Assembly: GCF_007994225.1 (NCBI RefSeq)
Contig: NZ_VLLL01000005.1
Coordinates: 1,225,142-1,289,141, forward strand
Reading direction: 5' to 3'
Source: Stackebrandtia albiflava
Lineage (GTDB): Bacteria > Actinomycetota > Actinomycetes > Mycobacteriales > Micromonosporaceae
Length of the DNA: 64,000 nt
Below the pieces are notes generated by a model, which had not been told where the DNA came from, did no database searches, and worked only from the letters and a program-made list of their open reading frames with translations. A program made the translations under genes and the position numbers. Shown here piece after piece: positions 8,164 through 64,000 of this stretch (positions are counted from its first letter, which is position 1; every line of letters starts with the position of its first letter).

Positions 8164-9767
8164 GACGTGGGAGGACGACCGCCCTGGTCGTGACGGCGGT
8201 AGTGGCACTGCTGGCGGCGGGGACGGCGCTGGCCGAGAGACCGGAGGAGAACCGGATGGCGCGCAGTACGGTGCACACCGACGCCGGGGTGCTGCGGGGC
8301 ACGGTGGCCGACGACCACCGCAGCTTCGAGGGCATCCCCTATGCGGCGGCCCCGAAGGGGGAACTGCGCTGGCGGCCGCCGCAGCCGGTGAAGCCGTGGC
8401 GCGGGGTACGTGACGCCACCTCACCCGGCAGCCCGTGCCCGCAGACCGGGACACCGTACGGCGGTGAGGAGGTGCTGGAGGAGGACTGCCTGTACCTGAA
8501 CGTGACCACTCCGGTGAGCGGCCCGAGGGACAAGCCGGTCGTGGTGTGGATCCACGGCAACGGGACCATCGGGTCCGGTGACGTCTTCGACGCGCGGCGC
8601 CTCGCCACACGGGGCGACGTGGTGGTGGTGACGATCAACTACCGCATGGGGGTGTTCGGGGCGTTCGGCCACCCGGAGCTGCCCGAGTCGGGCGTCCTGG
8701 GGTTGCGGGACCAGCGCGCCGCGTTGCAGTGGGTGCAGCGCAACGCCGAGGCGTTCGGGGGTGACCCGTCCAACGTCACGTTGTTCGGGGTCTCGTTCGG
8801 TGCTACGGCGATCTCCGGTCACATGATGTCGCCGGAGTCGCACGGCCTGTTCCACCGGGCCATCCTGCACAGTGGATTCACCGTGATGGACGCCCCCTCG
8901 GGGGCGATCTACCCGTTCCTGGAGGAACTGCCGCGCTACGGCTGGACGACCGACGCCCAGGTGAGGGAGACCGGCGCGGCCGTGGCGGCCGAGCTGGGCT
9001 GTGGCGAGGCGTCCGACGTGATGGCGTGCCTGCGGGCGAAGCCGGTGAAGGAGCTCCTCGCGTACCCGTCCGTCATGAACATCTTCCAGTCGTACGCGCT
9101 CGGTTCGGCCGAACTGCCGGGCGACCCGGCGACCGCCTTGGCGGCGGGGGAGTTCGCCCGGGTGCCGGTGCTCGCGGGCAGCACACTGGACGAACACCGC
9201 ACCATGGTGGCCATCCGGGTCCTGTCCGGTTACCCCATAGAGGACGCCACGCAGTACACCGCGGCGTTGCGGCAGGCGTTCGGGGAGGACGCCGAGGCGG
9301 TGGAACGGGAGTACCCGTTCGCCGACTACCGCAACGGCAACGAGGCGTTCGCGCAGGTCATGACCGACCGGATGTGGGCGAGGGCGACGCTGCGGCAGCA
9401 CACCGCGCTCGCCGGGCACACCGAGGTGTACGCGTACGAGTTCGCCGACCGGAATCCGCCGCAGGAGTTCCCGTTCCCGCCGGAGGTGGAGCCGGGCGCC
9501 TACCACAACGCCGACATCAGTTACCTGTTCAGGGACCCGGAGTTCGAGGCCGAGTTGAGCCCGGCGCAACTGCGGCTGTCGGACACGATGATCGACTACT
9601 GGACGGCGTTCGCCCGCAACGGTGACCCCCGCACTCCCGGGGCACCCGAGTGGGAGCGGTTCGACACCACCGGAACGGTACTGGGACTGGCGCCCGGCGA
9701 TGGTGGCATCGCCCCGGTCGACTTCGCGGCGGAGCACCGGTTGGAGTTCTGGGAGCGGATGCCGTGA
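8160..9767 (+). CDS. Secreted type B carboxylesterase
   Basis: 535 residues. An N-terminal signal peptide (RRGRTTALVVTAVVALLAAGTALA) predicts export. The carboxylesterase/lipase type B fold is shown by FEGIPYAAAP, EDCLYLNV (disulphide region), the oxyanion-hole strand VVWIHGN, and the nucleophile elbow GVSFGA with Ser at about residue 212 (family consensus GESAGA). NADISYLF near the C-terminus carries the catalytic-His region's upstream context. It hydrolyses carboxylic esters; substrate unknown. Coupled to the preceding TetR gene, which probably senses the substrate or product. Confidence 0.9.
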   Translation: MRRGRTTALVVTAVVALLAAGTALAERPEENRMARSTVHTDAGVLRGTVADDHRSFEGIPYAAAPKGELRWRPPQPVKPWRGVRDATSPGSPCPQTGTPYGGEEVLEEDCLYLNVTTPVSGPRDKPVVVWIHGNGTIGSGDVFDARRLATRGDVVVVTINYRMGVFGAFGHPELPESGVLGLRDQRAALQWVQRNAEAFGGDPSNVTLFGVSFGATAISGHMMSPESHGLFHRAILHSGFTVMDAPSGAIYPFLEELPRYGWTTDAQVRETGAAVAAELGCGEASDVMACLRAKPVKELLAYPSVMNIFQSYALGSAELPGDPATALAAGEFARVPVLAGSTLDEHRTMVAIRVLSGYPIEDATQYTAALRQAFGEDAEAVEREYPFADYRNGNEAFAQVMTDRMWARATLRQHTALAGHTEVYAYEFADRNPPQEFPFPPEVEPGAYHNADISYLFRDPEFEAELSPAQLRLSDTMIDYWTAFARNGDPRTPGAPEWERFDTTGTVLGLAPGDGGIAPVDFAAEHRLEFWERMP

Positions 9768-62922: not shown

Positions 62923-63654
62923 ATGACAAGACTGAACCAGCTGATCGCCGTCGAGAAGACCGTCAAGGGCAAGGCGCAGCAGAAGATCGCCGAGGTCGGC
63001 CGCGACCTGGCCAAGGCCGGCCTGCTGTCGGGCATATCGCGCACCTACCAGCCCAAGGACGAGGACGGGGAGCAACTGCCGCCGGAATCGACGCGGGTGC
63101 AGGTCCGCGCCGACGTCGTTCTCAAGGAGGTCGCCGACGGTCTCACCCGGCTGTTCGACGTGACGGCCTCCAAGGACCTCACCAACTGCACCGCCCGCGC
63201 CGACGTGGTCGTGGACGGCCAGCCCCTGCTGCGGGACGTTCCGGTCACCACACTCCTGTTCCTCGAGAAGCAGTTGGCCGAGATGCAGGCGTTCCTGCGG
63301 CGGCTGCCGGTGCTCGACGCCGCGGAGGTGTGGGGCTACAACGACGCCGCCGACTGCTGGTCGACCGAACCGGTCCGCACCATCCGGACCAGGAAGGTGC
63401 CCCGCAACCACGTGAAGGCCGAGGCCACCGAGCACCACCCGGCCCAGGTCGAGGTCTACCACGAGGACGTCCCGGTCGGATACTGGACGTCGGTCAAGTT
63501 CTCCGGAGCCATGCAGGCCAAGCGGCTCGGTGACCTGCTCGACCGCGTCGACACACTGCAGCACGCCGTGAAGTTCGCGCGCGAGGAGGCAAACGCCACC
63601 GAGGTCGTGGACAGCCGCATCGGCGACAAGGTTTTCGGTTACCTGTTCCGGTAA
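62923..63654 (+). CDS. Conserved hypothetical protein upstream of permuted tRNA-like units
   Basis: 243 residues. Starts MTRLNQLIAVEKTVKGKAQQ; mixed alpha/beta with long helices (KGKAQQKIAEVGRDLAKAGL, FLEKQLAEMQAFLRRL) and a C-terminal HAVKFAREEANATEVVDSRIGDKVFGYLF. Two conserved-looking patches are TASKDLTNCTARADVVVDG and PVGYWTSVKFSGAMQAKRLGDLL. I recall similar uncharacterised actinobacterial proteins (DUF7873-like) but cannot confirm. No signal peptide, no TM, no nuclease or ligase motif. Its stop lies 71 bp before the first tRNA-like unit on the same strand, so cotranscription with it is plausible. Confidence 0.75.
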   Translation: MTRLNQLIAVEKTVKGKAQQKIAEVGRDLAKAGLLSGISRTYQPKDEDGEQLPPESTRVQVRADVVLKEVADGLTRLFDVTASKDLTNCTARADVVVDGQPLLRDVPVTTLLFLEKQLAEMQAFLRRLPVLDAAEVWGYNDAADCWSTEPVRTIRTRKVPRNHVKAEATEHHPAQVEVYHEDVPVGYWTSVKFSGAMQAKRLGDLLDRVDTLQHAVKFAREEANATEVVDSRIGDKVFGYLFR

Positions 63655-63662
63655 CCTGGAGA

Positions 63663-63682
63663 CTTCCCCCGAGCGGGGGAAG
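63663..63682 (+). terminator. 8-bp hairpin after the conserved hypothetical gene
   Basis: CTTCCCCC-GAGC-GGGGGAAG, perfect, 9 nt after the stop at 63654. Without a U-tract it may be a terminator or a processing/stability element in front of the tRNA-like array. Confidence 0.55.
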
Positions 63683-63724
63683 AAGTGCAGGAGCACAAGC
63701 TGAAACTGAAGTCGAAACTGATTC

Positions 63725-63800
63725 GCGGTCAAGACGCGGGTTCGAATCCCGTCACCGGTACGTGCCGGTGTAGCCCAATGGTGAGGCAGCCGCGTGAGAC
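63725..63800 (+). tRNA. Permuted tRNA-like unit A (3' half before 5' half)
   Basis: Order on the DNA: anticodon-stem 3' strand GCGGT (63725-63729), variable loop of 6 nt, T-arm GCGGG-TTCGAAT-CCCGT (63736-63752), acceptor 3' strand CACCGGT (63753-63759), discriminator A, 3-nt linker CGT, then acceptor 5' strand GCCGGTG (63764-63770), TA, D-arm with GCC/GGC stem, A26 and anticodon-stem 5' strand GCCGC (63789-63793) plus loop GTGAGAC. Acceptor pairs 7/7 (one G-U); anticodon stem 5/5 (one G-U). CCA is not encoded. The anticodon depends on the unknown junction; if the loop is GTGAGAC it would read GAG. The variable loop is short. Read in normal order, the 5' half does not match the next 3' half. 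Confidence 0.6.
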
Positions 63801-63866
63801 TCAGACTATCGCTCCAGACTCAGCATTCGCCATCACGCACCGGCCGACGACGGACGGACGACGGGA

Positions 63867-63945
63867 CTTGAGGTTGCAGGTTCGACTCCTGCCCGCCGCG
63901 CCACATGCGGCGGTAGCTTCAATGGGAGAGCGCAAGGCTTGAAAC
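63867..63945 (+). tRNA. Permuted tRNA-like unit B (3' half before 5' half)
   Basis: Order: anticodon-stem 3' strand CTTG (63867-63870), variable loop AGGTT, T-arm GCAGG-TTCGACT-CCTGC (63876-63892), acceptor 3' strand CCGCCGC (63893-63899), discriminator G and encoded CCA (63901-63903), linker CAT, then acceptor 5' strand GCGGCGG (63907-63913), TA, D-arm GCTT/GAGC, G26, anticodon-stem 5' strand CAAGG (63933-63937), loop CTTGAAA and C 63945. The acceptor pairs 7/7 Watson-Crick. If the 5' half ends after C 63945 and joins CTTG, the anticodon stem is 5/5 and the loop reads UGA. Other junctions give other anticodons. An 8-bp helix between flanks (63851-63858 with 63949-63956) would close the anticodon end. 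Confidence 0.65.
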
Positions 63946-64000
63946 GGATCCGTCCGCGACGGGCCGGCAGCGGCGATCACGGTGGCATCTCCGGGGCTCG

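Follow-up and report, generated by a model that had tools for sequence, protein, structure and literature searches.

A probable new class of Y-like RNA with tandem tRNA mimics, encoded beside DUF7873 genes

At the end of the 64,000-nt stretch of the Stackebrandtia albiflava genome analyzed here (contig 1, positions 1225142-1289141; hereafter the window, whose coordinates we use throughout), a gene for a DUF7873 protein is followed by a structured RNA of roughly 330 nt that comprises two modules. We read this element as a new Y-like RNA class built of tandem tRNA mimics, with DUF7873 as its candidate protein partner, and assign this reading a probability of about 0.75. In module 2, a basal helix bears a full tRNA-like fold, with T, acceptor, D, and anticodon stems, that is opened at the anticodon loop; its acceptor end is thereby closed into a hairpin, the arrangement known from bacterial Y RNA, and module 1 is laid out likewise. 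Where one genus was sampled well, presence of the RNA follows that of the DUF7873 gene and not that of Ro60. Such loci seem to be shared by many soil bacteria and some large phages. One result weighs against a structure beyond chance: folded as single sequences, both units beat their shuffled counterparts only modestly (z -1.90 and -2.09).

Two tRNA-like modules tied to one gene

The modules are supported by matches to the bacterial Y RNA family YrlA (Rfam RF02553) and by an alignment of relatives, and both lie on the plus strand. In module 1 (63699..63824), a conserved basal stem, GCTGAAACTGA ... CTCAGACTATCGCTCCAGACTCAGC, encloses tRNA-like unit A (63725..63793), in which an anticodon-stem strand (GCGGT, 63725-63729) is followed by the T arm (63736-63752), an acceptor hairpin formed by the 3' strand CACCGGT (63753-63759), the loop ACGT, and the 5' strand GCCGGTG (63764-63770), the D arm (63773-63787), and the opposite anticodon-stem strand (GCCGC, 63789-63793). 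Module 2 (63838..63969) runs from a basal helix through the anticodon stem, T arm, acceptor hairpin, and D arm to a closing helix; its unit B (63876..63936) consists of a T arm (63876-63892), an acceptor hairpin with the strands CCGCCGC (63893-63899) and GCGGCGG (63907-63913) around the loop GCCACAT, which includes an encoded CCA, a D arm (63916-63931), and the strand CAAG (63933-63936), which pairs with an upstream CTTG. A sequence-only reading of positions 63725-63945 had described exactly this order, T arm, acceptor 3' strand, loop, acceptor 5' strand, and D arm, in two units whose 5' halves pair with the 3' halves upstream of them, and both the order and the matching acceptor and anticodon-stem strands are borne out.

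The paired strands are kept in relatives, as that reading had asked. In an alignment of 39 non-redundant sequences (38 from bacterial genomes and 1 from a plasmid), chosen from 58 in which both units were called, with long loops and near-duplicates dropped, module 2 has a consensus of 33 pairs in six helices, and both sides change in 29 of them. Pairing is seen in 93.9% of 1278 cells, including every acceptor and T-stem cell (39/39 sequences), none of 500 shuffles reaches the observed value on any of five measures, and sliding the structure by 1-3 columns lowers pairing to 36-49%. Related sequences may beat shuffles without any structure; the slid control retains relatedness. The acceptor columns equivalent to those of unit A (93-99/107-113) are paired in 36-39 of the 39 sequences with several pair types, and the basal-stem columns of module 1 (37-46/162-171) are paired in 37-39 and are mostly invariant. 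This stem hardly varies in sequence, one strand resembling CTCAGACTCTCGCTCCAG.CTCAGC being conserved, and the core pattern of module 1 is present at 85/89 bacterial and 26/52 viral loci, against an expectation of 0.04 per 600 nt. At one locus (L106), the tRNA-like part of module 1 has apparently been lost 3' of the gene and the conserved basal strands are kept, which suggests that the stem of module 1 matters more than its mimic.

A pairing script that demands a T arm, a seven-pair acceptor hairpin, and a D stem, with loops of 3-44 nt allowed, was run on 144 DUF7873 loci of actinobacterial, phage, or viral-contig origin. Some of these rows are duplicates: L035 equals L031, the record that holds the window's RNA, L041 equals L037, L034 and L099 probably come from one genome, and a handful of viral contigs look near-identical. 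At 142 of the 144 loci, the 1 kb downstream of DUF7873 holds one or more permuted units (two at 93, three at 5, and one at 44); the misses are L209, where the contig ends, and L194. Upstream units occur at 13 loci. Over the 600 nt that follow the gene, the density is 2.77 units per kb (237 units); over the remainder of these loci it is 0.048 per kb (110 units in 2.31 Mb, both strands), in keeping with the earlier judgment that chance is an unlikely explanation.

Linkage to the gene is sharpest in a sample of 150 genomes drawn evenly from one genus, taken as Streptomyces, which we searched with R2, a covariance model of module 2 trained on the 38 bacterial genome sequences and the plasmid sequence. 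DUF7873 is present in 69 of these genomes, and R2 matches of at least 68 bits (range 68-135.7) occur in exactly those 69 and in none of the 81 genomes that lack the gene. All strong matches share the contig and strand of DUF7873, at a distance of 146-351 nt past the gene (median 209). Below them, the highest score is 60.6 bits, a level of match seen whether or not a genome has the gene.

These weaker matches bear on the possibility that the units are left over from a decayed tandem tRNA array or read out by chance from neighboring tRNAs. Weak matches are indeed plentiful, both to YrlA (75 of 121 genomes in an order-level sample at E 0.05) and to R2 (140 of the 150 genomes at E 0.001, among the matches listed), and probably represent tandem tRNAs, to judge from three copies at 78-nt spacing in one genome (G506). 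In the genus sample, however, such R2 matches stay at or below 60.6 bits, short of every match beside DUF7873; ARAGORN calls no tRNA either within the window or across the 20 kb around its end; and compensatory change in the paired strands is strong. Among 30 compared of the 45 ordinary tRNA matches in the host genome (5.55 Mb, 13 contigs), none is a close normal-order parent. Covariation and gene linkage already speak against array decay, which the sequence-only reading had likewise doubted and which we regard as scarcely credible.

A constant position downstream of the gene would also suit a cis-acting element, one that regulates or terminates the DUF7873 transcript without any role as a partner: the RNA lies downstream on the same strand in 69/69 genomes compared, within the spacing to module 2 given above. 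Yet its size and its two full tRNA-like domains would be unusual for a 3' element, and in a Microcoleus phage the weak R2 matches lie one gene further on; we consider this explanation distinctly unlikely. The odds that we attach to the rival explanations are not mutually exclusive.

Several smaller features flank the modules on the plus strand. A G+C-rich hairpin, CTTCCCCC-GAGC-GGGGGAAG, is predicted by single-sequence folding 3' of the DUF7873 stop codon (63663..63682), and a G+C-rich stretch is common at the corresponding site in relatives. Directly 5' of module 1, folding gives a short hairpin, GTGC-AGGA-GCAC (63685..63696), whose equivalent columns (21-25/31-35) are paired in 29-39 of the 39 relatives. 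Past module 2, the RNA extends about 20 nt beyond the window end into another G+C-rich hairpin, perhaps a terminator, which starts at 63992..64000 (L031 about 9134-9163) and corresponds to columns 341-353/361-373 of the alignment of relatives; a simple scan for T-run terminators and a sigma-70 scan found nothing at 63992..64000. The sequence-only reading had proposed counting units further on, and no third unit was found in the sequence read past unit B. Beyond the terminal hairpin, in the 20 kb around the window end, lies an endonuclease/exonuclease/phosphatase-type gene on the opposite strand. Three loci from one genus (L038:1129-1201, L039:2527-2597, and L040:1151-1223) carry an extra, normal-order tRNA unit before the terminal hairpin, which ARAGORN calls tRNA-SeC(tca) twice and tRNA-??? 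once.

Relation to bacterial Y RNA and Ro60

At gathering scores, Rfam has no match within the window. At permissive thresholds, the sole convincing matches are to YrlA, and both are full-length (model positions 1-114): module 2 with unit B scores 36 bits (E 3.3e-6; L031:8993-9101) and module 1 with unit A scores 29 bits (E 3.6e-4; L031:8851-8953), with E values of 7.0e-6 and 7.4e-4 when rescored against the whole genome. Both scores fall below the YrlA gathering score of 69 bits, which is reached in none of the 121 order-sample genomes, TROVE-linked Y RNAs included. Because weak YrlA matches are so common, the unit A score alone is indecisive. The architecture says more: the model alignment and the consensus fold place T arm, acceptor-like hairpin, and D arm in the YrlA order, and a basal stem joins the ends, with both-side changes in 11 of the 12 pairs of module 2 helices 1 and 2. 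YrlA matches also appear at phage loci adjoining DUF7873.

What had been taken for permutation is the known Y RNA arrangement, since in the Y RNA model, too, the T arm comes first, then the acceptor-like hairpin, then the D arm; the fallback offered at the time, tRNA-derived RNAs of unknown function, is supported. The same order is described for YrlA in sections of PMC8394870, where the basal stem tethers Rsr, and the tRNA-like domain both binds PNPase and is a substrate of the modifying enzymes DusA and TruB. Paired Y RNA genes also have a precedent, the rsr-yrlBA-rtcBA operon of Salmonella, in parts of PMC8394870 and PMC7790460. The window RNA is thus like YrlA, as portions of the published accounts present it with Ro60/Rsr, in setting a permuted tRNA-like domain over an end-closing basal stem, but it differs in its sub-threshold scores, in its basal motif, and in adjoining DUF7873 and not a TROVE gene.

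The window RNA could nevertheless be an ordinary Ro60-bound Y RNA, a second YrlA set used by a Ro60 encoded elsewhere in the genome. Its fold is YrlA-like, and the genome has one TROVE (Ro60-like) match, on contig 9 (31946-33240; L032, L057), with its own nearby Y RNA (YrlA, 44.9 bits). In a phylum sample of 296 genomes, moreover, DUF7873 occurs in 6, TROVE in 9, and both in 5, so that five of six DUF7873 genomes also have TROVE; five of the six belong to the one genus taken as Streptomyces. Against this, the genus sample holds 80 genomes with TROVE (41 with both genes, 28 with DUF7873 only, 39 with TROVE only, and 42 with neither), a co-occurrence that is not significant (Fisher p 0.19), and a TROVE match is absent from those 28 of 69 DUF7873 genomes and from 4 of 8 in the order sample. 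The RNA follows DUF7873, and the basal stems differ: the host genome has one DUF7873-linked and one TROVE-linked RNA locus of different basal-stem classes, and the basal motif of TROVE-linked Y RNAs (GCCCGGTGCGCAGGCGACGGTTACTTC and GATCTCGGGC in the clearest cases) is not that of the DUF7873-linked RNA. A shared Ro60 is accordingly a very unlikely explanation.

Acceptor ends and the permuted-tRNA alternatives

The sequence-only reading favored circularly permuted tRNA genes, whose transcripts would yield functional tRNAs once circularized, or joined by ligation, on the acceptor side and cleaved at the anticodon. The 3' half does precede the 5' half, and the acceptor, D, T, and anticodon stems all pair, as in algal and archaeal permuted tRNA genes, which likewise have the 3' half first (parts of PMC3978253, PMC3218864, and PMC10085705). 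The anticodon-side ends, however, extend into a covarying basal helix, and there is no sign that the anticodon is joined. An RtcB-type ligase had been proposed for the flank; the genome has one RtcB gene, but on contig 11 (10720-11817), unlinked to the RNA locus or the TROVE locus. For the splicing endonuclease sought with it, a genome search gave no match to the tRNA-intron endonuclease (PF01974), and its control finds the family in the 4 archaea. With 45 ordinary tRNA matches already in the genome, and with a strict tie to one protein gene that would be unexpected for tRNAs, we judge working permuted tRNAs highly improbable.

The acceptor ends bear on this explanation and on a related one. 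Among 234 units (up to two per locus, counted from the gene over 700 nt, with L035 and L041 excluded), CCA follows the discriminator (NCCA) in 83, in favor of permuted tRNA genes, and is absent from 151, which tells against them; its absence from many copies is weak evidence by itself, as CCA can be added after transcription. In bacterial second units, CCA is found in 16/59 and CT at that place in 42/59. A separate count over all units, duplicates included, finds TTCG in 19 loops.

RNase P and 3' trimming could open the acceptor loop to leave a nicked, chargeable, CCA-ended RNA in two pieces, like permuted transfer-messenger RNA (tmRNA). Two-piece tmRNA has inverted tRNA-like ends with a loop between the CCA and the 5' end, and it is not known to have complete D and anticodon stems. 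The window RNA shares the inverted ends and the intervening loop, the encoded CCA in 83 units would fit, and the loops are variable within the 3-44 nt allowed by the script. Yet CCA is kept in few bacterial second units, TTCG is the kind of loop found in closed hairpins, and, unlike tmRNA, the window RNA has complete D and anticodon stems and two tRNA-like domains. The tmRNA model scores 9.1 bits over the T arm of unit A, against a threshold of 47, and 24.5 against 84 bits at a Klebsiella phage unit; for a tag-coding region, the Rfam and ARAGORN scans were the only coverage. Opening of the acceptor loop, which is partly compatible with a Y-like RNA class, strikes us as unlikely. The acceptor ends fit a capped mimic better than a chargeable tRNA, although processing in those lineages that keep CCA, or CCA addition, may occur.

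DUF7873 in bacteria and phages, and a proposed role

The putative partner is encoded at 62923..63654 on the plus strand. Its 243 residues match DUF7873 (Pfam PF25283) over residues 1-242 and positions 1-242 of the 244-position profile (E 2.7e-111; 371.5 bits against a cut-off of 27), and NCBIfam and PADLOC return no match to it; the best PHROGs match has an E value of 0.058. A scan of genome contigs gave at least 590 matching stretches and at least 544 confirmed relatives, hence DUF7873 on at least 544 genome contigs, of which the best 80 were kept and named, all actinomycetes. The family is also present on 46 viral contigs and 4 plasmid records, and the phage records that encode it number 73 at E 1e-3 and 88 at E 10. 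In the order sample, DUF7873 is found in 8 of 121 genomes, TROVE in 12, and both in 4, with the RNA seen downstream at 8/8 DUF7873 loci, unit 1 being incomplete in some. Deinobacterium chartae, which lies outside the actinobacteria and has both DUF7873 and TROVE, is the sole DUF7873 carrier among 14 control genomes. Other neighbors are inconstant: the 12 largest neighbor families are all absent from viral loci, none exceeds 21 of 141 loci, and the largest is an open reading frame read through the RNA itself.

Eleven phage records and one plasmid record were examined in detail. DUF7873 stands amid tRNA genes in four of the phages (Mimi, Phendrix, NiceHouse, and RHph_TM30; L211, L212, L215, and L217), each with an unannotated gap of about 410-530 nt after the gene. 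When R2, whose training set is free of phages, was run on 37 loci, 22 of them drawn from the larger set of high-ranked viral or phage DUF7873 loci, it scored 94-115 bits at eight viral contigs (highest 114.7), 93.8 in Gordonia phage Phendrix, 91.5 in Arthrobacter phage Mimi, and 87.8 in Rhodococcus phage NiceHouse. Lower scores were obtained with Keelan (58.1), Pam2 (52.3), Klebsiella phage FBKp24 (36.6), RHph_TM30 (34.6), RHph_TM16 (30.1), and L194 (17.9), and in the Microcoleus phage (32.9 and 28.7, one gene further downstream); the Vibrio phage D517 and Lak-B3 loci gave no R2 match. Nine TROVE-linked Y RNA loci score 29-47 bits, five of them over the tRNA-like part only, so R2 scores below about 50 bits fail to separate the two classes. 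In four later phage loci, the pairing script finds one unit each in Vibrio D517 and RHph_TM16 and none in Lak-B3 and Microcoleus.

A few observations at these phage loci stand apart. The DUF7873 match in Prevotella phage Lak-B3 (L226) is weak, with 24.7-26.7% identity and E values of 3e-3 to 6e-3 for Lak megaphages in the five matches listed. The tRNA array of Phendrix encodes a tmRNA (L212:2072-2600; 89 bits, gathering score 47), and Mimi has a near-threshold match to abiF RNA close to DUF7873 (L211:3165-3195; 33 bits, gathering score 37). In FBKp24, an annotated and ARAGORN-called tRNA with a stop anticodon (tta; L216:5013-5097) overlaps the 3' half of the second permuted unit and is perhaps a misannotation of the RNA. 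A structured RNA amid phage tRNA genes recalls GOLLD RNA and phage tRNA arrays, as parts of the literature portray them; the RNA described here differs in its DUF7873 partner gene, and the seven phage loci scanned contain no GOLLD match.

We posit that the basal stem of module 1, with its conserved sequence, is the binding site of DUF7873, such that gene and RNA would yield one ribonucleoprotein from which the exposed tRNA-like domains could be recognized by tRNA-acting proteins. That DUF7873 and the RNA form a complex of this kind is, in our estimation, likely; given the complex, a decoy or tether role toward tRNA-directed enzymes is about an even bet. The RNA would most likely serve as a decoy or docking platform. 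In phages, it may divert or recruit a host tRNA-acting nuclease, a modifying enzyme, or PNPase, to a defensive or regulatory end, and bacteria may retain a domesticated copy. Parts of the literature offer points of contact: the authors of PMC7790460 raise the idea that an anticodon nuclease could be inhibited by the YrlA domain, YrlA occurs in several phages and a Ro60-related protein in one Vibrio phage (sections of PMC7765460), and some jumbo phages encode TROVE proteins (sections of PMC7824862).

Bacterial Y RNAs have been described, in the parts of PMC8394870 and PMC7790460 drawn on here, with Ro60-type proteins, and no description of the DUF7873-RNA pair was found in the literature on DUF7873, bacterial Y RNA, permuted tRNA, and phage tRNA arrays; a tandem Y-like tRNA-mimic class beside DUF7873 is apparently undescribed. 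More tentatively, and as somewhat less likely than not, we propose that a Ro60-independent ribonucleoprotein of the Y RNA kind, with DUF7873 as its protein, is common to actinobacteria and to large tailed phages whose hosts fall into several groups, its tandem mimics acting as decoys or docking sites for tRNA-directed enzymes and possibly as a phage counter to tRNA-attacking nucleases. If a second, unrelated protein family does have its own tandem tRNA-mimic RNA, permuted tRNA mimicry would be a more general device; the pairing would give DUF7873 its first testable role and would add a new RNA class to the tRNA-centered conflict between phages and their hosts.
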